A stretch of 28,999 nucleotides of DNA from a virus. The translations under genes and the position numbers were made by a program. Where the stretch lies: positions 1 to 28,999 of IMG/VR virus record IMGVR_UViG_3300037132_000365; one strand, written 5' to 3'. Under the pieces are notes generated by a model. That model saw nothing but the letters and a program-made list of their open reading frames with translations, was not told the origin of the DNA and ran no database searches. This document shows, one piece after another, positions 4,369 through 28,999 of this stretch; within the stretch, counting starts at the first letter, position 1; every line of letters begins with the position of its first letter.

Positions 4369-5523
4369 TTATGATATTTTATTTACTGTTGACTGATCAC
4401 AACCTTTATACAAAACTTCTTCCAGCATTTCAGCTATTGAGTCGCCCTCTGATAGCAGGTCAGCCGCTTGCATTATTGTACGAGTCGTTACCATAATATT
4501 TGTGAGATTGCATGCGTTAATTTTTTCTCTTTTCTCCATAAGGATTTTATAAGCTCTGCGGCCATACTCACCGTACTGAGCTTCAACCAAGCCCTGAACT
4601 AAATTCCAGTCAGTGTCCATTTTTACGTAAACGTAACGATTTTTACTCGCTGCGTCCTGAGCTGATCTGCCGACGTACTGTCTATTTGCTCCGTCGCCTA
4701 TCGTGTTAGCACACGCTACGATTCTAAAATTTTCATGCTTCTGTACCATTCCGCAAGGAAAACTACAAAGCTCATTTGAGGTTGCGCTATTCAGTGCCAG
4801 CATTACGTTAGCGTTTCCAGCGTCACTCTCGTCGTTGCAATACAGACCGCCAAACGCAAACGCTTTATATAAAAGGCTCTCGACATAATTTCCGTTGGCG
4901 TCCATAAAGCCCATAAGATCTGACTTCGTAGTCTGTGATGTTACTGACTGGCAGTAATAAGGCAGATTAAGAGCTTTAGCGACCTGACTGGCTACGTGTG
5001 TTTTGCCTGAACCGCTCTCTCCCCATATCCATAAATTTAAGCCCTTATTAACATGTCTCAAAATTCTCTCGAAGCGTTCGTGAGTTAAACCCACGTTTAT
5101 TTTTTCGCCGTTGACAGTTTTGACTTCAACCTCTCTCGGCAGTGTTAACTTTTTGATAGCTTCGTCGATCTGCTTAGCGATCATGTCCTTTGTGGCGTCG
5201 TTATTTCTGAACTGTTTGAGCTGATCTGCAATAAGTTCTAAAACTCTGATCTCGTCTAAGTCTGACGGTGTCGATTCGAGGTGTCCCTGAATTGCTTGAG
5301 CGATTAGCTCAGCCAAGTTTTCTCCAACGTTTGCTTTTTTAGCTGAGGCTTCTGTTACAACCTGATCGGGAAGGAAGCCCTGACAGATTAAATTTACTAA
5401 CGAAGATTTAGATAAGTTAAGAACCCAAGCTCCCTGATTTCCTTTTGCTCTTGCAAGTTTTCTCAGTTCGCTTACGGTCATTGAAGTTAATTCTGTGGCT
5501 GTGTAATTTGTCTCTGTTGTCAT
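4369..5523 (-). CDS. MoxR/AAA_5-type AAA+ ATPase with N-terminal SAP/Rho-N-like domain
   Basis: A 384-aa protein. Residues 10-46 (SMTVSELRKLARAKG and onward) look like a SAP or Rho-N helix pair, which would bind nucleic acid. A linker of about 100 residues leads to an AAA+ module: Walker A GESGSGKT at 168-175, Walker B GGLYCNDE at 225-232 and a sensor-1 ACANT near 271-275. The layout fits the MoxR/CobS group, ATPases that remodel protein complexes, usually with a partner. No von Willebrand-type partner is present; the adjacent DUF7192-like protein is the obvious candidate. The ATG at 5523 is chosen over one at 5550 because GGAG lies 6 nt before it and the shared leader leads straight to it. 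Confidence 0.85.
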   Translation of the reverse strand: MTTETNYTATELTSMTVSELRKLARAKGNQGAWVLNLSKSSLVNLICQGFLPDQVVTEASAKKANVGENLAELIAQAIQGHLESTPSDLDEIRVLELIADQLKQFRNNDATKDMIAKQIDEAIKKLTLPREVEVKTVNGEKINVGLTHERFERILRHVNKGLNLWIWGESGSGKTHVASQVAKALNLPYYCQSVTSQTTKSDLMGFMDANGNYVESLLYKAFAFGGLYCNDESDAGNANVMLALNSATSNELCSFPCGMVQKHENFRIVACANTIGDGANRQYVGRSAQDAASKNRYVYVKMDTDWNLVQGLVEAQYGEYGRRAYKILMEKREKINACNLTNIMVTTRTIMQAADLLSEGDSIAEMLEEVLYKGCDQSTVNKIS

Positions 5524-5573
5524 TTTGAACTCCGTTAATTTGAATGTCAATGTTAAATTTTAATGTCTGTGTT

Positions 5574-5602
5574 AACTTACTAAGTGCTTGTCAATTTGTC
5601 AA
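5574..5602 (-). promoter_or_regulatory. Phage promoter cassette, copy 3
   Basis: TTGACA (5602-5597), 17 bp, TAAGTT (5579-5574). The candidate operator is CTTGACAAATTGACAAG, one mismatch from a perfect palindrome. Upstream it shares TTTAGTAGCCC with copy 2. Confidence 0.8.
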
Positions 5603-5621
5603 GGGCTACTAAAAATAAATA

Positions 5622-5900
5622 TTAAAGATTTTCGCAAAATTTAGCTGTTAGCTCAGCATGTTTTACGAAGATTGCCAGACATGAACCGTTGCTCTGAAAA
5701 TTACCACAAGTCTGACCGTCCCAATTCTTAAAGCCAAGAGCTGTAAATTTAGATTGTAACTCAGTATTATTTTGCCAGGTAACGTTACAATTGAATATTC
5801 TCCATGCGCCTTTTTCAGAGGAATTATAAAAATATTTAACGCTTGCTGTGATTCCGTTTTCTTTTAAGAAGGCTGCCATTTTCTGATTTTCAATTCTCAT
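5622..5900 (-). CDS. Small hypothetical phage protein (92 aa)
   Basis: A 92-aa protein with an N-terminal helix (NQKMAAFLKENGI) followed by a predicted compact alpha/beta domain (SVKYFYNS, GAWRIFNCNVTW, FTALGFKNWDGQ, SCLAIFVKH). I have an impression of similar small proteins on phages and plasmids, but I know no named family or function. AGGAAC precedes the ATG and a phage-type promoter lies about 45 nt upstream, so it is transcribed alone. No terminator is visible before the next promoter, so readthrough into the AAA+ ATPase gene is possible. Confidence 0.65.
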   Translation of the reverse strand: MRIENQKMAAFLKENGITASVKYFYNSSEKGAWRIFNCNVTWQNNTELQSKFTALGFKNWDGQTCGNFQSNGSCLAIFVKHAELTAKFCENL

Positions 5901-5943
5901 TTCATTTGTTCCTGTTAGTTAAATAATTTGTTCTGTCTCTGTT

Positions 5944-5972
5944 AATCTATAAAGAGCTATACAATTTGTCAA
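5944..5972 (-). promoter_or_regulatory. Phage promoter cassette, copy 4
   Basis: TTGACA (5972-5967), 17 bp, TAGATT (5949-5944). The operator region reads CTTGACAAATTGTATAG, with the same second half (TGTATAG) as copies 1 and 6. The leader is shorter than in the other copies. Confidence 0.8.
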
Positions 5973-6059
5973 GGTATATTACTTAAATATTTAATTTATT
6001 ACTGCGGTTTTAACGCCTCTGTGAGCGCTTATAACGCATGTCGAGGTAATTAGATAAGG

Positions 6060-6073
6060 GGTGTTATGATATG
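6060..6073. repeat. Dispersed repeat, copy C (shorter variant)
   Basis: GGTGTTATGATATG, related to copies A and B by loss of a few bases in the middle. Confidence 0.4.
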
Positions 6074-6148
6074 TTTATTTAACTGAGCTTACTGGGGCTT
6101 TCTATGTTAGAACGTCAGGTCTTAGATCGCCTTAACGCTCTTACGCAT

Positions 6149-6175
6149 AAAAAAGCCGGAGGTTTTAAGTCCGGC
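6149..6175 (-). terminator. Intrinsic terminator of the lipoprotein gene
   Basis: GCCGGA and TCCGGC form the stem; TTTTTT follows on the minus strand. It lies about 75 nt past the stop codon. Confidence 0.85.
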
Positions 6176-10133: not shown

Positions 10134-11660
10134 TTAGTGCGGTCTCGTTCCCGCCGTTATCATTTTCTTCTCGAGTGTTACTTCTGCTAACATGGTCGCC
10201 ACATCTGCGGCGTCGTCATGTTTGTTGGTCCCAAATTTTACGTAGCCGAATAGCTGACGCATAAAAAGATCGTAGTCAGAGCCAGGAGCGTAATCGTCTT
10301 TTGATCTGAACACGAAATACTCCTTAATCATTCCCGACTTCATTAAAATTCTTGTTTCTTTATTCTGGCTGGTAGCTTTCCACGTTATCGTACATGGTGT
10401 TAACCCCTTGCATAATTTCTGAATATTTTTAGCGAATGATTTTCCCCCTGCGTTACTTTCGATCTGCATACGATTACATTCAGTGTCAATTATTTGCTGT
10501 GCTACTCGTGGCTCAGTTACTTCAATAGGGTCTTGAGTAAATACTACATCAGTAACGTATACCTTCCCTCCGATCATTCTCCCGATTATGCTGCCAAGAA
10601 AGTCAAGTCCTTCGTCGGCTGTGTCAGTAGTTCCGACAGTAGCGTCACAAATAATCTTCCCCTTGAGAGCTCCGTTCTCATATCTTCTGAGCTCTGACAT
10701 TCTGAAATACTTAAGATCAAGCTCAGGAAACAGCGAGCCTTTAGACTCAACCGGATTCTGCATAAACTCCGCTTCCCAAATAAACGAGTCTGTGATTCTT
10801 TTGAGCTCGTGATATTCTCTTGTGGATTTTATCTCGTCGCAAAAGGACTCACCGTTTTTATCCAGAGCCGGTACTACTACTTGCACCCAAAAGTTAACAT
10901 ACAGCGAAGGGTCGAGTAAGAAGTTCTCGAGTGATACGACTTTATCGTTTTCCTCGATACGTCCGATTATATCTTTTTTCGACCACCTTGTAGCGATCTG
11001 AATTTCAGGACAATTTTTCTCCATACGTGATTTATGCGTCGAAGTATACCACTGCCATTTTTTCTCGAGTACATTTTCAGACATACCCTCGTCAATGTTT
11101 TTAACAGGGTCGTCCAATATTGCAATTCCGTCGCAACCTTTACCAGTTACAGAGCCACCGACTCCGGCGCAAAAGTAACTCGATTGTTTTGCCTCAGTTA
11201 CAGCCCAATCAGCGACCTGCGATTTATCGCTCTTAAGTTTCATATGAGGGAATACCTCAAGGTAGTCAGGGAGCTGAATAATCGTACGAACGTCATAGCT
11301 GAATTTCATAGCCAAGCTATCTCCGTAAGCATTACGCATTATGGATTTTTCAGAGTGCTTGCCTAAGTACCACGCACAAAACAAACTAACGATATACGAC
11401 TTACCAGCTCTTGGAGGCAAGGATAAAGTTAGCTTTGTAATTAGTCCGGCTTCAATCATTTGAAGTGCTTTAGCGATCTCCCTCAAGTGAGGTTTCCTGA
11501 CTGTAAAAAAGTCATAGTCCATATAAACGCAAAAGGTGTAAAACTCGTCCCTTGCCCTTAAGACAGTTCTCCGCTTCTGGATAAATAACAAACGTGTTAT
11601 TTTATCCGCTTCTAAGAGCGAACGAGTCCCCGACATGGATTCATATATATTAGCAGTCAT
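10134..11660 (-). CDS. terL: Terminase large subunit
   Basis: A 508-aa DNA-packaging motor. The N-terminal ATPase has a Walker A-like LPPRAGKSY (81-89) and a Walker B ILDDP (181-185), followed by a coupling segment with IATRWSK (222-228). The C-terminal RNase H-like nuclease shows Asp at about 339 (CDATVG), Glu at about 401 (IESNAGG) and Asp at about 482-483 (KHDDAADV), so all three metal-binding acids seem present. It would translocate DNA into the procapsid and cut the concatemer. The gene overlaps the small subunit by 11 nt. The order small subunit, large subunit, portal, MuF is standard. Confidence 0.93.
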   Translation of the reverse strand: MTANIYESMSGTRSLLEADKITRLLFIQKRRTVLRARDEFYTFCVYMDYDFFTVRKPHLREIAKALQMIEAGLITKLTLSLPPRAGKSYIVSLFCAWYLGKHSEKSIMRNAYGDSLAMKFSYDVRTIIQLPDYLEVFPHMKLKSDKSQVADWAVTEAKQSSYFCAGVGGSVTGKGCDGIAILDDPVKNIDEGMSENVLEKKWQWYTSTHKSRMEKNCPEIQIATRWSKKDIIGRIEENDKVVSLENFLLDPSLYVNFWVQVVVPALDKNGESFCDEIKSTREYHELKRITDSFIWEAEFMQNPVESKGSLFPELDLKYFRMSELRRYENGALKGKIICDATVGTTDTADEGLDFLGSIIGRMIGGKVYVTDVVFTQDPIEVTEPRVAQQIIDTECNRMQIESNAGGKSFAKNIQKLCKGLTPCTITWKATSQNKETRILMKSGMIKEYFVFRSKDDYAPGSDYDLFMRQLFGYVKFGTNKHDDAADVATMLAEVTLEKKMITAGTRPH

Positions 11661-12204
11661 TCGAGCCCTGAGAGTCCTCTATTAGCTTTATGCTACTATC
11701 AGGGTCAAGAGTAAGGGCGTCGATTTCCACTCCTCGTTTAAGTTTAGCATATTCGGCGTCAAGTTCCTCTGCCGTCATAGCTCTCACCTTGCTTTCAAAA
11801 GAAGCTGCTATGTTAACGTCCTTGACTTCTCTCCATTCTTTCGGGCGTCTGTTTTGTAGCCAGAATTTTATTGCTAGTACATCAGGCGGAATTTCCTTTT
11901 TAGTTTCCTTAATGGATTTTACAGAGGGACTACCTTCTGACGTGTTAGCATTGTACTCGATAGTTCTCTCGGTAAATTTATATCCGAGAGCTCTCCTTAA
12001 AAGTGCGTTTTCGACCTGAATATCAACAGGAGCTTTGCCGTCCTTTAATGCCTCAGAAAACTCAGGATACTTTTTGACATACTGATAAAGAGTCTCGGCA
12101 GATATACCGAGGTTTTCAGCTATTTGCTCATCTGACAAACCTTGTCTCGCATATCCTTGAGCTAACAGTGGAAAGTCACTATTATATTTTGAAGGACGTC
12201 CCAT
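11650..12204 (-). CDS. terS: Terminase small subunit
   Basis: A 184-aa protein. It begins MGRPSKYNSDF, and an HTH (GLSDEQIAENLGISAETLYQYVKKYPEF) at about residues 22-50 gives the DNA-recognition domain typical of small terminases. A middle part (PPDVLAIKFWLQNRRPKEWREV) is the common oligomerisation/linker signature of this group, and the C-terminal tail is acidic. It should recognise the packaging site and load the large subunit. The ATG immediately follows the TAA of the ParB-like gene. Whether packaging is cos- or pac-type cannot be told from this protein. Confidence 0.88.
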   Translation of the reverse strand: MGRPSKYNSDFPLLAQGYARQGLSDEQIAENLGISAETLYQYVKKYPEFSEALKDGKAPVDIQVENALLRRALGYKFTERTIEYNANTSEGSPSVKSIKETKKEIPPDVLAIKFWLQNRRPKEWREVKDVNIAASFESKVRAMTAEELDAEYAKLKRGVEIDALTLDPDSSIKLIEDSQGSNDC

Positions 12205-13128
12205 TTATTTTAAGCTCTCAACCGGAATGTTTAACGCCTCAGTGATTGCAAACTCTAAACATTTAGCAGGGTTATTATATCCGAGTAACGACTGACAGCG
12301 ATCTTGCCACTCTTTCCAAGCGTCATTCGTATTTGAGTCAACTCTTACACTGATACGTTTATTAAAACCTTCTCCTCCATTGGTCTCAAGGTTATAATAT
12401 TCAGCAACGATCTCGCACATTTTTAATACTATACCGGAAGCACTTCTGACATTTTCATTTTTCAAGGTTGTCTGAATTACTTTACGAAAGGTCTCAAAGT
12501 ATTGCATATCAATAACTTGGATAGTAGCGTCATTCTCTATTGCCTTAATAACATTGTCAAAAGTCTTTTTCTGATCTGGAAAGAATAGCATGTGAATATT
12601 CTGATAGTCAAAGTCTACTCCGATCTCGTCGATTTTCACTTTAGCGTCCAGTTTCAGATCTTCTTCAAATATTCCTGACTCGAGTTTAGACTCAAGGCTA
12701 CTCATGCCCTCGTATATTTCTTTTAATAACTGAGTATCACTGTGACCACTTAAAGCGTTGTGTGCTAATTGTTTAGCCTTAACCTGATCTGCTGATAAGT
12801 TCTCCTCAATAACCAGTACATAAATGTAAAGTACGCCAACCGATCTGCAAGCCCTTATCCTATGGTGTCCCGATATGATAGGGAGCTCATTATGGTCGTT
12901 AGGTAAAGCGCATAAAGGCATAGATTCCATACGCTTATCCTTCTTAATATTTTCAGACAGTCTCTCGAAGCGTTTAATAGGCATTACCTGAGCATTTTTA
13001 TCTTGCTCCCTTAAACAGTCGATATGCACTTTATAAACAGCTATACCATTTCCGAGGTCTAATACTCTCTCGATTGATTTTTCATTAACGACAGGCTCTT
13101 TTTTAATCTTTGCCACTTTGTTCTCCAT
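12205..13128 (-). CDS. ParB/Srx-fold protein (phage ParB-like)
   Basis: A 307-aa protein. The N-terminal 130 residues carry the ParB-fold core, notably ELPIISGHHRIRACRSVGV (81-99), equivalent to the GxRR-type phosphate/CTP-binding loop of ParB, followed by LAHNALSGHSDTQLL. The C-terminal part is unlike chromosomal ParB: after a long helical region it ends with a short segment (RISVRVDSNTNDAWKEW) that may be an RHH- or wHTH-like DNA-binding domain. Phage proteins of this kind are commonly next to terminases and DNA methyltransferases, as here. It could be a nuclease, a CTPase clamp or a specificity factor for DNA modification; the sequence does not decide. The gene overlaps the methyltransferase by 26 nt. 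Confidence 0.8.
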   Translation of the reverse strand: MENKVAKIKKEPVVNEKSIERVLDLGNGIAVYKVHIDCLREQDKNAQVMPIKRFERLSENIKKDKRMESMPLCALPNDHNELPIISGHHRIRACRSVGVLYIYVLVIEENLSADQVKAKQLAHNALSGHSDTQLLKEIYEGMSSLESKLESGIFEEDLKLDAKVKIDEIGVDFDYQNIHMLFFPDQKKTFDNVIKAIENDATIQVIDMQYFETFRKVIQTTLKNENVRSASGIVLKMCEIVAEYYNLETNGGEGFNKRISVRVDSNTNDAWKEWQDRCQSLLGYNNPAKCLEFAITEALNIPVESLK

Positions 13129-14530
13129 AAGGTTTGTTTGAATGTTCTGTTAAGTAAATATTTACGCAGTCCTGATACGTCCTGTCATAAAAGTCATGTC
13201 TGTAAACGATTTTATAAGTGTCGTTAGGTAATTTCTCCCGACTGACTATATCGAGGATGCCACTGTTTAATCTGTTTTTGCGGTACTTACTAAGACAGGT
13301 TGTTTTTAATCCACTGAGAGTGAATATCCGGTTACGATTTCCCAATATTCCGCTTGAAAATAAGAATGACCTGAACTCCTTGCAAGTTATAGCCATCATC
13401 ATTAAGCGGTTAACGTGAGGATATTGCTTAAGATATACGCCAAAGCCGAATACCTCGAACACGTCCTCCGTAACTAATCTTCTTAAATCAGAGGCGTGAA
13501 GTCCTATTGTTCTAAATACTTTACCGTCGATTAGCATTAACAGATATGTTTCTGCTTTTGTATTTCCTAACCTGTGAGCAAATAAGTCACGATAGTACAG
13601 ACCGACTTCTTTAACAGTCCGTATAAAAGTGATCTTACTGTCAGGTAGAATTATATCATCCTCATTCATTACTGGAAGTTTCGAGGGCTTAATTGCGACG
13701 TCTTTTTTTAAGATCACTACCTTGCGCTGTTTGTATTCAGAGAGCCAGCTAATATTATTTATCGCCAGCGTTTCAAATTTGTTTTTGCTCTTTTCAACGA
13801 CGCATAAAAGGTTTTCGGGAGGAAGCATTTTCTCAACCTGATAGCTCGTAATAAATATTGGCGTGTTAACACTCTTAGCCTGTTCGATCATTTGCTCGAA
13901 AAAATCCTTGTGAACAAACTGCTCTATTCCAGAGACGAAGCCCGTCAGCTCCTCAGCCTTGTTAAACATTTTTTCATATCCGCCAGAGTAGACAGGGGGA
14001 TTAAGTACGACGACGCCACACTCCTCTTTAATCGTTTGCCACATGTCGAGAATTTCATAATTCAGACCAGCGTATACAATTTTAATTTTAGTGAGCTTAG
14101 TGGAAAGTACCTTGAGATAATTGTCCCAATTTTCCATAAGGTCGTCAAAGATCACTGCCGTATATAATTTGTTCTCGTCGAGCTGCTGAGTTTTGATTAG
14201 TAATAGTAAATGAGCTGCTTTTTCGCAGTCATTATCATACTTACGATTTATTTCCGCTCTCATGTCGTCGGATATTGGTAGTGTGTCGATAGGTGTGTCT
14301 GAATATAAATACCCGAGTATACTGGAAAACAGTGATATGTCAGACGAGTAAATTTCCGAAGGCTTAAACCCTGCTTCGATAGCGCACTTGACCATACCAA
14401 ACTGACCGACTGCCGGAATAGTAACTCTTTTATGTCCCTGAGCCTTAAGATGTTTAAGGACGTCCGTTAAATATTTCCGGTGTTCGGATATAACAGAGCC
14501 TAAAAATATTTTGTCTAACTGCTGAATCAT
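13103..14530 (-). CDS. Putative DNA adenine methyltransferase with a possible Mom/GNAT-like C-terminal half
   Basis: A 475-aa protein. The N-terminal half is a class I methyltransferase fold: VTIPAVGQFG (36-45) in the place of the SAM-binding loop, an acidic SSDIS (62-66), and VVLNPPVYSGGY (174-185), a DPPY/NPPY-type catalytic motif of N6-adenine methylases. It resembles the phage group annotated as putative antirestriction adenine methyltransferases. From about residue 300 a second domain follows (LYYRDLFAHRLGN, DGKVFRTIGLHASDLRR, FEVFGFGV, RLMMMAITCKEF, TTCLSKYRKN, IVSRE, YRHDFYDRTYQ). I suspect a GNAT fold related to Mu Mom, which modifies adenine further; this is an inference. It heads the late block, with AAGGAG 8 nt before the ATG. 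Confidence 0.7.
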   Translation of the reverse strand: MIQQLDKIFLGSVISEHRKYLTDVLKHLKAQGHKRVTIPAVGQFGMVKCAIEAGFKPSEIYSSDISLFSSILGYLYSDTPIDTLPISDDMRAEINRKYDNDCEKAAHLLLLIKTQQLDENKLYTAVIFDDLMENWDNYLKVLSTKLTKIKIVYAGLNYEILDMWQTIKEECGVVVLNPPVYSGGYEKMFNKAEELTGFVSGIEQFVHKDFFEQMIEQAKSVNTPIFITSYQVEKMLPPENLLCVVEKSKNKFETLAINNISWLSEYKQRKVVILKKDVAIKPSKLPVMNEDDIILPDSKITFIRTVKEVGLYYRDLFAHRLGNTKAETYLLMLIDGKVFRTIGLHASDLRRLVTEDVFEVFGFGVYLKQYPHVNRLMMMAITCKEFRSFLFSSGILGNRNRIFTLSGLKTTCLSKYRKNRLNSGILDIVSREKLPNDTYKIVYRHDFYDRTYQDCVNIYLTEHSNKPYGEQSGKD

Positions 14531-14586: not shown

Positions 14587-14603
14587 ATATATTTTGTAAT
14601 GTG

Positions 14604-14675
14604 CTGCGTGATTAGGAGTCGAACCCAAGTTTCCCCCTTGAGAAAGAGAGCGTCCTAACTTTAGACGACCACGCA
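14604..14675 (-). tRNA. tRNA-Glu (anticodon CTC)
   Basis: A 72-nt cloverleaf was folded by hand. The acceptor TGCGTGG pairs with TCACGCA (7 bp, one G-T), the D stem is GTCT/GGAC, the anticodon stem TCTCT/GGGGG (five pairs, three G-T), the loop TTCTCAA gives anticodon CTC with T33 and A37, the variable loop is 4 nt, and the T arm TTGGG-TTCGACT-CCTAA is standard. The discriminator is G, as usual for Glu, and CCA is not encoded. The weak anticodon stem and an extra base before it are unusual but tolerable. It reads GAG, a codon common in the phage genes. Confidence 0.8.
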
Positions 14676-14860: not shown

Positions 14861-14900
14861 AAAAAAAATCCAGCTCACTGAGTTTAACAGTAAACTGGAT
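14861..14900 (-). terminator. Intrinsic terminator of the restriction-modification gene
   Basis: ATCCAG and CTGGAT form an outer stem that encloses a second hairpin (AGTTTA/TAAACT), followed on the minus strand by a run of eight T. It separates the enzyme gene from the tRNA and late genes. Confidence 0.8.
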
Positions 14901-14945: not shown

Positions 14946-17297
14946 TTATAATTTATTGTGCAAATTGTCCCTAAAAAACTTAATAATGGAGAACGCACTT
15001 GTTTGATGAGTAAGTTCTGCCATTTTTTCAAAGTCAGGAACACCTTTTGAAATAATTGGTGCAATTAAAATTGTTTTTTTAATTCGAGCTTTGCCAAATT
15101 TACGAGCATAAACATATCTCCATCTCTCGCGACTTAATAAGTAAGCTAAATAATAGAAAGCATCAGTTGGAATTTTAAACTCTTTTTTAGGTGTCAATAT
15201 TGCAACTTTATAAAAAGCATAAAAAGGAAATTCTTGGACAAAACTTGAGCAGACACTTCCATCCGTTGCTACCGTTATGGCGGGAGCGTTATATATATTA
15301 CTTGAGGCTTTCCAGTTGGTTACCCCATTCATAAATTCACTGGTAGTTACAATTGGGAAATTACCATCTTCCAAATCTTCAATTTCCTCTTTCCCACCTA
15401 ACTTAACATTGAAATATTCCGAAATATCAATTTCACCTAATTTTATTCCGTCAAGAGAAACCTGAGTATTATCTGTGAACAATGCTGAATTAAGTTTAAG
15501 TGATTTTATGATTGAAATTTTATCGCCAAGAATTTTATTACCGCATGCAATATAGAACGAGGCTTGTTTACGAACACTTATCTCAAAACCTTGAACAAAT
15601 TCAAAATCTGAGTGTTTTGCATTTGCAATATAATTTTCTGGAGCCCATTCTTCTGAATCTTTATCAATAATAGGAAATGCTGTTAATTCTGGAATTGCTT
15701 TTTTAGATTCAAAGGCTTCTAATATTGTGGGAATCTGATTGCCCTCTCTTTCTACTCTATTGTTCTTTTTAAGTTTATGACCATCATTAAATATCCTTGC
15801 CATAAAAACTTTTTTATTATTATGAGGCAACCCTTTCTGGATCATTAGTATAGCTGTATTGTATGTTGCGTAAGGTTGAAAGACGTCGGCAGGCAAGGTC
15901 GCTACAAAATATAAAGTATTATTTTTAAGTATATTTTGATGCCATAAACTTGTATTTACAAGTAATGAGTATGGCACAATTGCGGCAAGAATACCTCTTT
16001 TTTTAATGCTACTTAAAGCTCTGTCAAGAAAATCTGTAGTAGGTGTATCTGTTTTCTTTTTGTGAGGGAAAGGCGGATTCATTAAAACAAAATCAACCTC
16101 TTCATTAGGATATTTTAAATTTACAAAACAATTGTCTTTTATTACGCCGCTTTTCCCATCTCCTCTTAGTATCATGTTTGTAATACATAATGCTGCTGTA
16201 GATGGTTCGGATTCAATTCCGAATAAATTATCCTTAATAATCTGTATAGCTTCGTCATAAGGTCTTTTACTTTTCTTCACCATCACATTTAATGCACCAA
16301 TTAAAAAACCTCCTGTACCACAAGCTGGGTCAAATACTTTATCTGAAGGAGCAATATTAAGAATCTCGCACATAAAAGCTATTACATGTCTTGGTGTAAA
16401 ATATTGTCCAATTGTATTGCCGCCCGTGAACCTAAAAAAAGTTTCGTATAATTGACCTAAATAATCGTGTTCTTGAATAAAAGAGTGGATATTTAATTTG
16501 GTAAGTATATCTACTATTTCCCAGGCTCTTTCAGCCAGGATACTATTCTCTGCATCTACGCTTAGACTATTTTGCAAATGTGGTTTACCAGCATTGCTTA
16601 AGGCTTGCTTAGAATTACCATTGATTTGAGTAAGGACAACGTCTTTATTGACAGACACATCCCCCAACCATAGTGCTAACATGAAGGTAGCTATATAAGT
16701 CGGACGATATTCGTCCTTTATTTTACATTCTCTTAAAATTTCATTCAGTCTATTTGCTTGTTGTGCCAACACACTTGCACTTGGTTTTTCGGGGTGAACT
16801 TCTGTTAGTTTTTTTGATGCCAGTATTTTTTCAGTTTGAACGGGTGAGGGTATCCAATCAATTGGTTCTCCATTTAATGTCAGCTCGATCCATTTATTTT
16901 TTATTTTTCTTTTTACTGATACTGCGCAGACCTCTTTTTCTCCACCGGCAACTCCAACGGTAATAACGTCATGCCCTTGTTCGATACATGCTTCTCCATA
17001 ATGGATTGCATCTGCAATAGCTTCTTTGATTTGCGATGCAGATTTTTTAGTCTCTACAATTAAAATTGGTTTTTGACCAAGAGAAGAATTTACCAGTAAA
17101 AAATCAGGGTAACCATCTCCCTTTTTTTTAGTTTTAGATTTTCCCTTAAATATTACTTGAAGGTGTTCATAATTTTTATATTCATTTTCTTCTAAACATT
17201 GACCACTTTTGTATAAAGTATCTATATTCCATCCTCTAAATGTGAGTAAATCCTTAGCCACCTGTCTCGCCCTTTGCTCAGTTAATTTCCTTGCCAT
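14946..17297 (-). CDS. Single-chain restriction-modification enzyme, type IIG-like (nuclease, N6-methylase and specificity domain)
   Basis: A 783-aa protein with three parts. Residues 1-130 resemble the type I R-subunit N-terminal nuclease, with a PD-(D/E)xK site: GYPDFLL (Asp 65) and IVETKK (Glu 82, Lys 84). Residues of about 180-470 are an HsdM-like N6-adenine methylase: FTPRHVIAFM, then DPACGTGGFL (323-332) for SAM binding and NPPF (407-410) for catalysis. From about 600 a single HsdS-like target-recognition domain appears (LGGKEEIEDLEDGNFPIVTTSEF, NAPAITVATDGS). One polypeptide could thus methylate and cut. GAGGAAC precedes the ATG at 17297. Promoter, palindrome and terminator make it a self-contained cassette, AT-rich relative to the phage core, so probably acquired defence cargo. 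Confidence 0.88.
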   Translation of the reverse strand: MARKLTEQRARQVAKDLLTFRGWNIDTLYKSGQCLEENEYKNYEHLQVIFKGKSKTKKKGDGYPDFLLVNSSLGQKPILIVETKKSASQIKEAIADAIHYGEACIEQGHDVITVGVAGGEKEVCAVSVKRKIKNKWIELTLNGEPIDWIPSPVQTEKILASKKLTEVHPEKPSASVLAQQANRLNEILRECKIKDEYRPTYIATFMLALWLGDVSVNKDVVLTQINGNSKQALSNAGKPHLQNSLSVDAENSILAERAWEIVDILTKLNIHSFIQEHDYLGQLYETFFRFTGGNTIGQYFTPRHVIAFMCEILNIAPSDKVFDPACGTGGFLIGALNVMVKKSKRPYDEAIQIIKDNLFGIESEPSTAALCITNMILRGDGKSGVIKDNCFVNLKYPNEEVDFVLMNPPFPHKKKTDTPTTDFLDRALSSIKKRGILAAIVPYSLLVNTSLWHQNILKNNTLYFVATLPADVFQPYATYNTAILMIQKGLPHNNKKVFMARIFNDGHKLKKNNRVEREGNQIPTILEAFESKKAIPELTAFPIIDKDSEEWAPENYIANAKHSDFEFVQGFEISVRKQASFYIACGNKILGDKISIIKSLKLNSALFTDNTQVSLDGIKLGEIDISEYFNVKLGGKEEIEDLEDGNFPIVTTSEFMNGVTNWKASSNIYNAPAITVATDGSVCSSFVQEFPFYAFYKVAILTPKKEFKIPTDAFYYLAYLLSRERWRYVYARKFGKARIKKTILIAPIISKGVPDFEKMAELTHQTSAFSIIKFFRDNLHNKL

Positions 17298-22602: not shown

Positions 22603-23346
22603 TCAATCTTCGGAGTATAAAGAGCTAATTTGTTCCCTGTATTCTGTTTCGAGAATGCTTCCTTTAGCTGGCTTTTTACTAAACTGCCGATTTGTTCCAT
22701 TTGCTTTTTTATCCATGTTTAATTTTAGTTGATCAAATTTTGCTCTGAGTTTGTCAGTGCTTAAAATATTATTCTGCCAGAATGCATCTGACTGACACCA
22801 GTCAATAACTCTGGCGACGTCAGCAGGGCTTTTCTTGTCGACTCTGATTAGCATGTCAATAGATTTGCACCATGTCTGATAATTAGGCTCTCTGTGGTCT
22901 GGGCTTCTCTCCTGGATTTTTTCAAAGAGCCTCTGAGTTAACACGTATTCGATTGACTCCTCCGAGAAGTCTTTAGGCTGTTTGGCGATCTGATTAGTGT
23001 TCTCAGATGTGTTATAACTATCGTAATTACATATCGTTATGCGCCCTATTTTCTGTTCTAAATCATAAGTGATCATTCCCTGTTCGACCAGCATTTTAAG
23101 AAAGCTACTCACCTTCGAGTTACTTTTCCAATTCCACCTTGATAAGAGAAAACGATTAGCTGCCACGAGTTGACCTCTACCCCATTCTACATGCCTGTCG
23201 TTTATAATTGCTTTCGTCGTTCCTTCCTTATACCTTGCAGTGGCGAGTAAATCTATCCAAGCCTCAGCTCTGGAAAACTCTCTCTTTTCTTTCCATAAAG
23301 CGTGATCAAATAACTTTCTGTATACCTTGATAAATCCCTCGTCCAT
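22603..23346 (-). CDS. Phage replication initiator (O/DnaD-like)
   Basis: About 247 aa. The N-terminus is the winged-helix domain of phage replication organisers: FIKVYRKLFDHALWKE, EAWIDLLATARY, WGRGQLVAANRFLLSRWNW, then FLKMLVEQGMI and a strand ITICNYDSY. The C-terminal part (SPDHREPNYQTWCKSIDMLIR, then VIDWCQSDAFWQNNILST) is the conserved tail that probably binds the helicase or loader. It should recognise the phage origin and start replication. The ATG at 23346 is preferred over a TTG seven codons upstream, since it follows the previous TAA by two bases. Confidence 0.85.
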   Translation of the reverse strand: MDEGFIKVYRKLFDHALWKEKREFSRAEAWIDLLATARYKEGTTKAIINDRHVEWGRGQLVAANRFLLSRWNWKSNSKVSSFLKMLVEQGMITYDLEQKIGRITICNYDSYNTSENTNQIAKQPKDFSEESIEYVLTQRLFEKIQERSPDHREPNYQTWCKSIDMLIRVDKKSPADVARVIDWCQSDAFWQNNILSTDKLRAKFDQLKLNMDKKANGTNRQFSKKPAKGSILETEYREQISSLYSED

Positions 23347-23348
23347 TG

Positions 23349-23720
23349 TTAGCTCACCACTGACCAATAAGCGGTTTTCTTTTTCGTGATCGGGTCGGTC
23401 GCTTCTTTCTCAAAGCGTATACGCATTGAGCCTAAAAGACGCCCTCTGCGGTCAGGGATTAAGTGTCGGGGTATATTTGTGTACTCGCTTATCATTCGGT
23501 CGTTAGCTGTCCCCAAAATGCGTAAGGCTTGCAATACAATAAGTGTTTGTGACTTCCTTTGATTAGCCGGAAACTCAAAATTTGCAAGTGCACTCAGGTG
23601 ATCAAATTTAGGCACTGAGATTGTTTTTGTGTCAGTCAAAGGGTCGAATAATGGAGTCCCTGCGGTTTCTCCTCTCTCCTGAATTAACTGAGCTAGTCGT
23701 GGATTATATTTCATGTTCAA
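23349..23720 (-). CDS. Small winged-helix-like protein
   Basis: A 123-aa protein. The C-terminal half (TLIVLQALRILGTANDRMISEYTNIPRHLIPDRRGRLL, cut here for length into TLIVLQALRIL and ISEYTNIPRHLIPDRRGRLL) has the layout of a winged helix in which a recognition helix precedes an 'R.G.L' strand, and it ends in a hairpin (KKKTAYWSVV). The start is TTG at 23720: GGAG lies 8 nt before it, whereas it would be 14 nt from the ATG two codons on. It might assist initiation or recombination, being between the annealing protein and the initiator. Confidence 0.6.
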   Translation of the reverse strand: MNMKYNPRLAQLIQERGETAGTPLFDPLTDTKTISVPKFDHLSALANFEFPANQRKSQTLIVLQALRILGTANDRMISEYTNIPRHLIPDRRGRLLGSMRIRFEKEATDPITKKKTAYWSVVS

Positions 23721-23774: not shown

Positions 23775-24917
23775 TTATGGTTTTATGTTTTTGACTTTAG
23801 GGACATATTTATTCAGGCCGATTTTCTTGAGCTTGGCGACTAAATAATCAAAGTACCAATACCTCTGAATGTCGTCTTTAACTTCTGCGATTAGTGCCTC
23901 GCATGATGTAATGTCACGTTCGAAGGTTTCAGTAGTCAGAGCGTCTATAACCATTTTGAGAATGTCGGCTTTAGGCTTGGCAGGCAAGTCCTCATTTTTA
24001 GGAGTGATCACTTCTTTTCCGCCTACCTTAAGAAGTATATCCTCGATAAGTTTTCTCTTGGCTGTAAAGTTAGCTTTGAGCCTCTCTGCCTGTTTTTTAT
24101 CAGTGGCAGTTACCTTGTTAAATAATATTCTAAGGTCATTAAGCAGAGTAACAGCTTCAAGCTCTTTCAGGATTGACTCGTCACCAGTCGGTTTGTTAGC
24201 GGTTGGTATTTTCTCGGGAGCTTTCTCTTTTTTAGGCTCGGGTTTAATCCCTGTTTTATTTTTCAGACTGGCTAAAGTAATTGACGGAGCGTTTGGACTG
24301 TCAGGAGCTGGCGAACCTTCGTCATAAAAAGGAAGTGAGTCGATATGTCTCCACTGAAATTCTCCGGTTTTATTTCTGCCCTGTTTATCTCTCCAAACTT
24401 TTACGCCGAATTTCTTAACCCAATTCTGAGACCAGCGAGGCTGCCAGCATTCCTTACCGATTCCTAAGTCTTTGCAGTTTCTAACGAGTGAGTCAGATTT
24501 TGCTCCTTCGTATACGGTAGCGATTGACATTTTAGAATTATTTTCATGGTATTGCATTTCGCCGATTGCTCTCGAGACAAAACAGCCTCTTATATATAGA
24601 GAGCCGTCAAACATGTACGTACCGTCTTTTTCTACTACTCTGTTTTCAATCAAAGCCCACTGACCGACGCCGAGTGATCGGTTAAGTCTCTCTCTGACAA
24701 AAATATGAGGTAAATATATAAGACCGTCAGGGCGTATGTTTACGTCGTCCTCGTTTATCGTAGCCAGGAGTTTCTCTGACTCTGCTGGCGTTAACACGAG
24801 TGAGCTCGCATTTTGATACTGCTGCATAATCATAGCAGATAAATTTTTGTCAATCTCGACCGGAGTTTTTATATTTTCTTCTATGATAGTGATTGCCTGA
24901 CTTGTTTCGTTATTCAT
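23775..24917 (-). CDS. MGM101/Rad52-type single-strand annealing protein
   Basis: A 380-aa protein. Residues of about 55-200 match the Mgm101-like annealing proteins of phages: YLPHIFVRERLNRSLGVG (68-85), WALIENRVV, MFDGSLYIRGCFVSRAIGEMQY, MSIATVYEGAKSDSLVRNCKDLGIG (130-154 in parts) and CWQPRW (157-162). Family members bind single strands and pair complementary DNA, the recombinase role played by Red-beta. The C-terminal 180 residues (a Pro/Lys-rich linker, then helices) are an extra region of unknown use, perhaps for SSB contact. The ATG at 24917 overlaps the upstream gene by 8 nt. It works within an early set with SSB and Gp157-like protein. Confidence 0.85.
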   Translation of the reverse strand: MNNETSQAITIIEENIKTPVEIDKNLSAMIMQQYQNASSLVLTPAESEKLLATINEDDVNIRPDGLIYLPHIFVRERLNRSLGVGQWALIENRVVEKDGTYMFDGSLYIRGCFVSRAIGEMQYHENNSKMSIATVYEGAKSDSLVRNCKDLGIGKECWQPRWSQNWVKKFGVKVWRDKQGRNKTGEFQWRHIDSLPFYDEGSPAPDSPNAPSITLASLKNKTGIKPEPKKEKAPEKIPTANKPTGDESILKELEAVTLLNDLRILFNKVTATDKKQAERLKANFTAKRKLIEDILLKVGGKEVITPKNEDLPAKPKADILKMVIDALTTETFERDITSCEALIAEVKDDIQRYWYFDYLVAKLKKIGLNKYVPKVKNIKP

Positions 24918-25551
24918 TTGAAGCCTCTATTTTAATAGTGTCTAATTTTTTTAGTCCTAAGAGCTGAGTATTGAATTTTGTTTCCTTGCCTACCCCTCTG
25001 ACCTGTTCTCCCTGATCAATAGCGGCGTTTATCTTTGTACTGTCTAACATTTCCACTCCTTTTGCAGAGTGAGTATTGAGGAAGGTTCTTAACACTCCAC
25101 GTTTAGCGTGAATGTTAGTAAACTCCTCTATTGACATTTCCATAGTGACGACTACTTTTCTAAATTTGTCCTCGATTAAATTGTCGTCTATAACAGTGAT
25201 CTCTTTTGATATGTCTTTGATCTTTACGACGTTACCAGCTAATACCTGACTTGCATATCCCTCAGCACTTCCAAAGGCTCTGACAGCTCTCGCAAGCCAT
25301 ACCTTGAAGCCCTTAAGATCTGATTCAATAACAGAGCGGTGATTTTTAGCAGAGAGCTCAAATTCCTTTAAGGTCTCGATTTTCTTTTCTTTCTCTCTGA
25401 TATAGTAGCCGATATTATCTACCTTGCCTACTATCGCTTTCTCTGCGATTGCGAGCTGTTCCTCAATCTCTTGAGTAATTTCGCCCTCGTTGATTTTTAT
25501 TAGCTCGAGGATATTCTCGAACTCATTTCCAAGTTGCATTAAATTTGCCAT
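24910..25551 (-). CDS. Siphovirus Gp157-like protein
   Basis: A 213-aa protein whose N-terminal 100 residues are a long coiled coil. The layout (a helix with EGEITQEIEEQLAIAEKA, then KVDNIGYYIREKEKKIETLKEFE) is that of the Gp157 family first described in Streptococcus phages, which lies beside annealing proteins and exonucleases. The C-terminal half (VVKIKDISKEITVID, KVVVTMEMSIEEF, KINAAIDQGEQVRGVG) is mixed. Its role is not settled; resistance to phage was reported for the founding member in my memory. Its leader contains the ACTTTAACAT and ACAACGGAG elements of the promoter cassette but no promoter core. Confidence 0.75.
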   Translation of the reverse strand: MANLMQLGNEFENILELIKINEGEITQEIEEQLAIAEKAIVGKVDNIGYYIREKEKKIETLKEFELSAKNHRSVIESDLKGFKVWLARAVRAFGSAEGYASQVLAGNVVKIKDISKEITVIDDNLIEDKFRKVVVTMEMSIEEFTNIHAKRGVLRTFLNTHSAKGVEMLDSTKINAAIDQGEQVRGVGKETKFNTQLLGLKKLDTIKIEASNE

Positions 25552-26935: not shown

Positions 26936-27610
26936 ATGTTAAATAACAATACAAAAGAGGTAACTGTAATGGAATGGAGAGAGTTTTTAGACCAGCTCTT
27001 AAAAGATTTCAGAACCACGACCTACGAGGTCGAAAAAGAACACGGAATAAGTTCGGCTATCTTATCTTATATAAAGACAGGTAAAACAGCTAAACCGTCA
27101 CAGAATACTATACGAAGGTTAGAAACAGCTTTCTCGATTGAGATTGACGACTCAAACCCCACCGACATACGATACACGAAACTCGAACCGATAAGGCTAC
27201 CTACACACAAACAAAAGACAGAAGTCTCATTACTCGAGTTTCCAATTTTTCATATCATACCAACAAAAGGAGAGTTGAGTAATTTGAACCTGAGCACATT
27301 TCCAGAGGTGACTTATTTTAACTACGATAGGCAAGCTGGCTGTTTCGCTTATCATATTTCAGAACCCTGCTGGCTGGACGGCTGGCTTAAAAGAGGCGAC
27401 ATATTACTCGCCGATTATAATGAACCCTTAAATGATGGTGACATTTGCATAGCTCAATTAGTTGACGGCAAAGTCCTTGTAAGGCGTTACCAAAAAATAC
27501 AGGAAGGAATTATATTATTAACGGCTGGCGAAGGTGAGGCTCTGATCTCTCTTACGCCTCCCGAGCTTAAGAGCATTGTGAGAATAGTAAGAATATATAA
27601 AACAGTATAA
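26936..27610 (+). CDS. CI/LexA-fold phage repressor with altered catalytic dyad
   Basis: A 224-aa protein. Residues of about 14-66 form an HTH (EWREFLDQLLKD, then SSAILSYIKTGKT), and 100-224 an S24-peptidase-type dimer domain: FAYHISEPCWLDGW...RGDILLAD, GDICIAQL, VLVRRYQK. Aligned with LexA/CI, the catalytic Ser of G-D-S-M becomes Cys 145 (EPCW) and the Lys becomes Arg 183 (LVRRY), so self-cleavage is doubtful. The start may be 26936 (GGAAGGA close by) or the Met at codon 12 (AGAGGT 7 nt ahead). It should hold the lysogenic state by binding the divergent operators. Confidence 0.82.
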   Translation: MLNNNTKEVTVMEWREFLDQLLKDFRTTTYEVEKEHGISSAILSYIKTGKTAKPSQNTIRRLETAFSIEIDDSNPTDIRYTKLEPIRLPTHKQKTEVSLLEFPIFHIIPTKGELSNLNLSTFPEVTYFNYDRQAGCFAYHISEPCWLDGWLKRGDILLADYNEPLNDGDICIAQLVDGKVLVRRYQKIQEGIILLTAGEGEALISLTPPELKSIVRIVRIYKTV

Positions 27611-27623
27611 CAGGAGTCCAGAC

Positions 27624-27842
27624 ATGCTTAAATATAAAAAGGTAGACAGATCAAAGGTAAGTATCTTATATAGAGAGCTTGCTCAGGTTAACCACGAAAT
27701 AAACGACACCTTTGAAACACCGTCGGCTATTTTACCCGAGCTAAATAAAACCTTCAAACTTGAAGGATTAGATTTGAGAGAGGATTTTATAATTATGAAT
27801 ATCGCCTTACAGAAAGGTATAATTAAATTCTCGGCTAACTAA
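27624..27842 (+). CDS. Small hypothetical protein between repressor and integrase
   Basis: A 72-aa protein with AGGAG before the ATG, 13 bp after the repressor stop. It is predicted helical (SILYRELAQVNHEINDTF, then LDLREDFIIMNIALQKGI) and has no motif. Its TAA overlaps the integrase ATG (TAATG), so it is co-translated with the integrase and, from the layout, probably transcribed with the repressor. No family is recognised. Confidence 0.65.
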   Translation: MLKYKKVDRSKVSILYRELAQVNHEINDTFETPSAILPELNKTFKLEGLDLREDFIIMNIALQKGIIKFSAN

Positions 27843-28999
27843 TGTCAAGACTGGTTTACGATAAGGGCTCTTTTATTCATATGAAATATTATGATAAGTC
27901 AGAGCCCGACCCTAAGAAAAGGAATAAGCAGTTTTCTACTCAAATTCCGAACGATAAAAAAGGTAAGAAACTTGCTCAGGCTTACCAGCGTCGCTTCGAC
28001 GCTGGTTTGCTCGAGAAAGATATTTTACACCTCCGAGGTGTTAACACCAAACGGACTACTTTATTTTTCTCCGAGGCGTTCGCTAATTTTATAATTGAGA
28101 AACAGAAAGCAGTTAATAAACCTCTGACGCATAGTTCTGAGCTGGCGTATATTCAGACTCGTGATTTATTCCTCGGCTTTGCCGGAGACAGACCACTGAG
28201 CGAATATAATCAGAGACATTATCTCGAGTTTGTCAGTTACCTTGATAAGCGCACTTTTAAGGCTACTAAGAGCACCGCAGAGGGATTCGTACATACTTAC
28301 CGTAATATGTCAAAGGCGACTATTGCAAAACATACGAGACAGCTTAAAGCTCTCTTTAGTTATTTTTTTAAGCACGTCAATCATTTAGAGCATTTTATAA
28401 TTGAAGCGAGGACTCCCCCGAAAGGACACCCTGTCTCAATCCCTCCCGAGGCTATTAAAAAGATCATTGTCGAAAGTAAAAGGCGAGCCGACTTTCCACA
28501 CCAGGCTTTTTTTATCCGCTTCGCATTACTAACAGGAGCGAGAGCTTCGAGCGTGTTAGCTCAGACATGGGATAAAATTTATTTTAATAGTGGCTATCTG
28601 GAAATATACAACGTCAAGACAAAACACTATTACCCTTTCCCTCTCCACGACGAACTACTTTTAATGTTAAAGGAATTACAGGGCGAGGGAGTTACAAAAA
28701 TAGGGCGACTGTTTCCTCAGTATTCGACTGAAAGGTCTACTCCTATTTTCTGGATAAGGTTAATTAACAGGCTCGTCGAGACAAAGGACGAGGATAGACG
28801 CATAGATCATAAATATACTTTCCACCAGCTTCGCAAAACATTTGCAACGTGGATAGCGAACTCCGGCACTGGTACTGACAAGCTGCAAGTTCTTTTAGAT
28901 CACTCGAGCTCTGAGGTGACAAAAGAATTTTATACGGAAAACAATATGAAGATATTTAAGGGGATTGTCGAAAAGGTGCAATTTGGGGGGCAGGGATAG
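27842..28999 (+). CDS. int: Tyrosine integrase
   Basis: A 385-aa tyrosine recombinase, full length, with its stop at the last base of the window. The N-terminal part carries an AP2-like arm-binding region (about 1-60) and a SAM-like core-binding domain (about 75-185). The catalytic residues are Arg 234 (TGARASS), Lys 259 or 261, His 328 and Arg 331 (HQLRKTF), His 354 (LLDHSS) and Tyr 364 (EFYT). It should integrate and excise the phage at an attachment site, probably just past the window end. Overlaps the 72-aa gene. Confidence 0.93.
   Translation: MSRLVYDKGSFIHMKYYDKSEPDPKKRNKQFSTQIPNDKKGKKLAQAYQRRFDAGLLEKDILHLRGVNTKRTTLFFSEAFANFIIEKQKAVNKPLTHSSELAYIQTRDLFLGFAGDRPLSEYNQRHYLEFVSYLDKRTFKATKSTAEGFVHTYRNMSKATIAKHTRQLKALFSYFFKHVNHLEHFIIEARTPPKGHPVSIPPEAIKKIIVESKRRADFPHQAFFIRFALLTGARASSVLAQTWDKIYFNSGYLEIYNVKTKHYYPFPLHDELLLMLKELQGEGVTKIGRLFPQYSTERSTPIFWIRLINRLVETKDEDRRIDHKYTFHQLRKTFATWIANSGTGTDKLQVLLDHSSSEVTKEFYTENNMKIFKGIVEKVQFGGQG

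Follow-up and report, generated by a model that had tools for sequence, protein, structure and literature searches.

A tRNA gene is linked to the genes of a fused Dam-like/GNAT-fold enzyme and a ParB-like protein in a 28,999-nt stretch of viral DNA (IMG/VR record IMGVR_UViG_3300037132_000365, referred to here as the window) and in most of its relatives. We propose, with a probability of about 0.6, that this cassette performs tRNA-dependent DNA modification, in which the GNAT half would move an amino acid from a dedicated aminoacyl-tRNA to an adenine that the Dam-like half flips out.

In the window, the fused protein (475 aa; PHROG 7858) is encoded at positions 13103..14530 on the minus strand, and its gene overlaps by 26 nt the gene of the ParB-like protein (307 aa, with an IISGHHR motif; 12205..13128, minus strand; PHROG 7405). 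Both open reading frames coincide exactly with those of a preliminary description of this DNA. They are followed on the same strand by the genes of the terminase small subunit (TerS, 11650..12204; phrog_309) and large subunit (TerL, 10134..11660; phrog_38), which are frequent but not obligatory neighbors of the cassette. Upstream lies a tRNA gene (14603..14675, minus strand), and beyond it a gene for a single-chain restriction-modification protein of 783 aa (14946-17297, minus strand); a terminator-like hairpin, identified by pattern match only, lies between the two (14868..14900, minus strand). The 783-aa protein matched N6_Mtase, Methylase_S, and, weakly, HSDR_N, which agrees with the earlier statement that the phage carries its own restriction enzyme; its N-terminus weakly resembles HSDR_N/VRR nucleases, so that the protein could be of Type IIG or Type I-like. 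The window also encodes an integrase that runs to its end (27842-28999, plus strand), a repressor/UmuD-like protein (26936-27610, plus strand), a Mu Gam-like end-protection protein (24910-25551, minus strand), a DnaD-like helicase loader (22603-23367), and an AAA ATPase-like protein matching phrog_249, a family labeled as porphyrin biosynthesis (4369-5550, minus strand). With its integrase and repressor/UmuD-like protein, the phage looks temperate.

A Pfam scan of the 475-aa protein assigned residues 9–194 to PF22555 (DAM-like-phage1) with an E-value of 1.2e-31, well above the cut-off, and the Dam-like Rossmann methyltransferase domain as a whole occupies approximately residues 9–262 (13745..14506, minus strand). 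In the model of the whole protein (pLDDT 88.3, pTM 0.76), residues 6–262 matched the folds of E. coli Dam, T4Dam, and DpnM (Z 12-13; 13.1 for E. coli Dam). The domain shares motif I-like (IPAVGQFGM) and motif IV-like sequences with these enzymes, and its motif IV (NPPVY, residues 177–181) corresponds to the catalytic (D/N)PPY motif; thus, the NPPY-type methylase half named in the preliminary description is borne out. The window enzyme differs from Dam, T4Dam, and DpnM in its fusion to a GNAT domain and in its very low sequence identity to them. Both PF22555 and PF22559, the family of the second half, were present in 51/51 aligned homologs. These two families, together with PHROG 7858 and 7405, are the home families of the two proteins, and their entries give no function and do not mention a tRNA. 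A search of the sequences of solved structures with the 475-aa protein returned no match, and a single-sequence search of viral contigs with the same protein found one relative only. When PF22559 was searched in bacterial genomes by phylum, few copies were found, all of them in long open frames of the size of the fused protein. One relative (L094, 3577-5949) encodes a fused enzyme of 790 aa with a LAGLIDADG-type insert, possibly an intein, and in FP_Brigit an S-adenosylmethionine synthetase gene (4981-6159) lies upstream of the cassette, separated from it by a few genes.

In 11 of 55 relatives, among them Jeon, Clawz, and some of the Arg-type phages, the NPP sequence was replaced by APP, FPP, SVP, SLP, SPP, or others, but the conserved GNAT residues were kept in them. 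Methylation is therefore unlikely to be the shared function of the family. Judging from these sequences, the shared activity more probably resides in the GNAT half, and the Dam-like half is more likely to serve as a DNA-binding, base-flipping scaffold, which may still methylate in members that retain NPP, such as the window enzyme. These losses also bear on an alternative in which the enzyme is a conventional N6-adenine methyltransferase, its GNAT-fold domain is accessory, and the tRNA aids translation or marks an attachment site. The window enzyme retains both the NPPVY motif and the Dam fold, and phages often carry tRNAs, but many of the linked tRNAs lack U33 or a 7-nt anticodon loop (see below), and an attachment-site role was rejected because the window integrase gene (27842-28999) lies 13 kb from the tRNA. 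We consider this alternative improbable.

The second half of the protein, described initially as a Mom/GNAT-like domain, has a GNAT fold. PF22559 (GNAT-phage-like) matched residues 298–463 (13142..13639, minus strand) with an E-value of 3.6e-11, again well above the cut-off, and the C-terminal domain modeled alone gave a pLDDT of 90.8 and a pTM of 0.86. The fold search with this model, a check that had been suggested in the preliminary description, ranked Mu Mom first (PDB 8bv8; Z 9.6, rmsd 3.6 across 141 residues), in a tie with ordinary GNATs, which scored 9.3 or less. Because these ordinary GNATs score within 1 Z of Mu Mom, Mom is not set apart by the fold. The sequence segments cited in the preliminary description are present, but the Mom-type part of the initial assignment was not upheld by sequence comparison. 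The Mom profile PF25680 matched Mu Mom itself, but the window protein matched PF22555 and PF22559 only in the Pfam scan, and a direct BLAST comparison with Mu Mom gave no match. An hhalign comparison with Mom gave a probability of 39% over 73 columns, with an E-value of 0.0003 for a single comparison made without a control GNAT family. The invariants of the Mom alignment (HY, ELxR, S-x-A-D, G, and Y-x-A-x-N) differ from those of the fused family, in which the near-invariant residues are YYR, H319, D335, G343, R375-L376, T410, G424, and Y443. In other words, Mu Mom and the window enzyme have the GNAT fold in common but belong to different families by profile and conserved residues, and Mom has no Dam-like fusion and Mu has no linked tRNA. 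The GNAT half also resembles the C-terminus of phage proteins labeled as amidoligases: phrog_2443 matched Jeon gp68 (L110, residues 306–417) with an E-value of 2.2e-07, and the amidoligase-labeled BFVD entry A0A8S5SJK3 matched the whole window model with a Foldseek E-value of 1.8e-20. The sole candidate record for this lead was an unrelated protein.

The canonical acyl-CoA motif A (R/Q-x-x-G-x-G/A) was found in 0/55 sequences of the family by motif scan. This fits the expectation for a donor other than CoA; motif A is also missing from some true GNAT-fold transferases. The result bears directly on a Mom-like alternative, in which the GNAT half would acylate adenine N6 from acyl-CoA and the tRNA would be an unrelated passenger. 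Mom is a known modifier of adenine N6; according to a published description, it takes an acyl group, for example glycyl, from acyl-CoA and places it at that position (PMC7824862), with methylcarbamoyl-adenine as the product (PMC8281217). Mu Mom was also the top structural match, and Mom genes are likewise paired with ParB-like genes and with annotated methylase genes. However, both the canonical CoA motif and a match to the Mom profile are lacking, and the tRNA is linked to the enzyme across highly diverged phages, is degenerate, and co-varies with the enzyme, as described below. We therefore regard the Mom-like alternative as unlikely, but as the least unlikely of the four alternatives considered here.

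The label of the 307-aa protein rests on matches to PHROG ParB-like families with E-values of 1e-8 or weaker; Pfam ParB_N was not reached, and NCBIfam parB_part was below its cut-off. When viral contigs were searched with this protein, 80 loci were found; wherever the contig reached far enough, the fused gene almost always lay immediately upstream, and the two genes adjoined in 14/14 prophage or metagenome-assembled loci found with the fused protein. They overlap in most relatives. The pairing of the enzyme with this protein is thus near-obligate among the relatives, and the earlier reading of it as a ParB-like partner is probable. The order enzyme-ParB-TerS-TerL is also found in Faecalibacterium phage FP_Brigit (Lys-type tRNA) and Microbacterium phage ValentiniPuff (Arg-like clade; TerS is annotated there as hypothetical), but two others, Mycobacterium phage Jeon (Gly-type tRNA) and Gordonia phage Clawz, keep the order tRNA-enzyme-ParB with the terminase located elsewhere, indicating that the constant partner is ParB and not the terminase. 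The suggestion, made from the adjacency of the terminase, that DNA is modified just before packaging was accordingly rejected as a necessary feature of the system. The combination of a methylase-like half, a GNAT-fold half, and a ParB-like partner makes a DNA-modifying role likely.

The preliminary parts list, consisting of the enzyme and the ParB-like protein, overlooked the tRNA gene at 14603-14675 on the minus strand. This is the one tRNA found in the window by ARAGORN, a tRNA-Glu with the anticodon CUC, located 72 nt upstream of the fused gene and on the same strand. It folds into a cloverleaf that scored 37.5 bits with Rfam RF00005 (gathering threshold, 29) and gave an E-value of 4.8e-08 with our covariance model R1, which was trained partly on that tRNA. 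Its D-loop lacks GG, its acceptor stem starts with U1-A72, and CCA is not encoded. In the sister genome, the nearest relative of the window, a tRNA-like gene occupies the corresponding position. With ARAGORN alone, 26/62 non-redundant loci yielded a tRNA no more than 300 nt upstream of the fused gene. A first covariance model built from 39 upstream tRNAs found degenerate tRNAs in most of the remaining loci, and three more (L107, L087, and L064) were added by a second model; since the first was trained on upstream tRNAs, only the loci missed by ARAGORN count as independent finds. Altogether, a tRNA or degenerate tRNA on the same strand was present within 300 nt upstream in 45/60 non-redundant loci and within 3.3 kb in 53/60, and was absent from 7/60, one of which had only 255 nt of upstream sequence. 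Across 849 kb on both strands, the only other model matches below an E-value of 0.02 were ordinary tRNAs in three loci (L103, L073, and L086). L103 provides an internal control, having a normal tRNA array plus one degenerate Gly tRNA at the cassette. ValentiniPuff served as a blind check: its fused gene begins at base 10 of a linear genome, and the tRNA turned up at the far end, with an E-value of 1.9e-12. Two or three degenerate tRNAs occur in tandem upstream of the fused gene in four loci (L083, L086, L088, and L038).

The position of the tRNA, which often heads a block that includes the terminase genes, could also be explained if the tRNA-like element were a cis signal for the late block, such as an RNA-processing or pac site. 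In contrast to this explanation, the tRNA remains with the enzyme in phages whose terminase is located elsewhere (Jeon and Clawz), and no tRNA was found at the corresponding place in four phages that have window-related terminases but no cassette. Because isotype features and discriminator bases are also preserved, we consider a cis signal very improbable, and the least probable of the alternatives.

The isotype of the tRNA, labeled according to the anticodon as we read it, follows the tree of the enzyme: 18 changes were required, compared with 34.8 when the labels were shuffled, and 0/200 shuffles gave a number as low. The tree forms Lys, Gly, Arg, and Glu-like blocks, whose deep joins are uncertain because of long branches, and the clade of the window is mixed (Glu, Gln, UUA, and other). 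Discriminator bases were preserved within the large isotype classes, with U73 in 14/14 Gly tRNAs and A73 in 26/27 Lys tRNAs. The helices have been kept by compensatory change, with 98.3% of cells paired and a covariation of 0.978 against 0.237 for shuffled data in an alignment fitted to the structure. Across isotypes, the acceptor stem mostly starts with C1-G72, C2-G71, and G3-C70, with C1-G72 in 48/61 distinct sequences. Meanwhile, features of ordinary tRNAs are often missing. With the anticodon loops taken from the tRNA alignment (that of the window separately), the loop was not 7 nt in 6/63 tRNAs and U33 was missing in 19/57 of the others, together 25/63. The D-loop GG occurred in 27/61 cassette tRNAs, compared with 22/23 tRNAs of phage T5 and 7/7 ordinary tRNAs of the same loci. 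A bulged base in the T-stem was apparent by eye in the Lys class, and two Glu-type scaffolds (L105 and L040) have UUA, complementary to a stop codon, as their anticodon. Since U33 is kept in 38/57 seven-base loops, many of these tRNAs could still decode.

A linked tRNA would also fit an enzyme directed at tRNA, and GNAT toxins acetylate aminoacyl-tRNAs (PMC9177977, PMC9241777). The GNAT half might thus act on RNA in the same manner, with the linked tRNA as its target, a decoy, or a resistant replacement. However, both the Dam-fold fusion and the near-obligate ParB-like partner point to DNA, the CoA motif is absent, and a replacement tRNA should keep its decoding features, which many of these have lost. 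We judge this alternative to be unlikely, somewhat more so than the Mom-like one.

Mom loci themselves provide a further comparison. The Mom-family genes of Arthrobacter phages Wyborn and Sonny and Microbacterium phage Antuna have a ParB-like gene nearby, and in all three a tRNA-Gly-like gene is located at the 3' side of the Mom gene, on the opposite strand in Antuna. Those of Wyborn (L176, 4544-4617) and Sonny (L169, 841-914) are unannotated and overlap the 3' end of the Mom gene. Neither Mu mom nor any of the further Mom loci inspected showed a linked tRNA; a host tRNA-Gly could be the supplier there. Together with the glycyl-derived modification described for Mom, the tRNA-Gly-like genes of the three actinophages are suggestive, but not proof, of a link between Mom and the tRNA system.

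FemX/MurM, L/F-transferase, and similar transferases have a GNAT-like fold and use an aminoacyl-tRNA as the donor, as we propose for the window enzyme, but they act on cell-wall precursors or proteins, whereas the proposed target here is DNA. In Staphylococcus aureus, dedicated tRNA-Gly species without G18G19 serve the FemX-type cell-wall enzymes (PMC4052509). We found no account of tRNA-dependent DNA modification in the open-licence literature.

An aminoacyl-tRNA donor is suggested by the linked tRNA, whose presence upstream shifts the likely donor from acyl-CoA to aminoacyl-tRNA. The proposed system would comprise a dedicated tRNA, the fused Dam-like/GNAT enzyme, and the ParB-like partner. 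A host aminoacyl-tRNA synthetase would charge the cassette tRNA, and the charged tRNA would be diverted from the ribosome because it often lacks features for decoding. The Dam-like half would bind DNA and flip out an adenine, and the GNAT half would transfer the amino acid from the aminoacyl-tRNA to the base, most likely to the N6 amine of adenine. The ParB-like protein would be indispensable to this, perhaps through a role in DNA loading or targeting. A base decorated with an amino acid would result, of the Glu type here and of the Lys, Gly, Arg, or another type in relatives, and it would probably give resistance to restriction; antirestriction is a plausible purpose of the predicted modification.

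More broadly, we see roughly even odds that phages have a widespread class of systems that place amino acids on DNA bases via a dedicated, often non-decoding tRNA, in which the amino acid would vary by lineage (Lys, Glu, Gly, Arg, and others) and could be deduced from the genome, and of which Mom would be a glycine-using functional relative. DNA modification by GNAT-fold enzymes is already known; if Mom does not depend on a tRNA, the cassette would be categorically new. If our proposal is true, tRNAs would supply a pathway of DNA modification, the linked tRNA would allow the modified base to be predicted, a group of odd phage tRNAs would gain a function, and a donor would be suggested for Mom.
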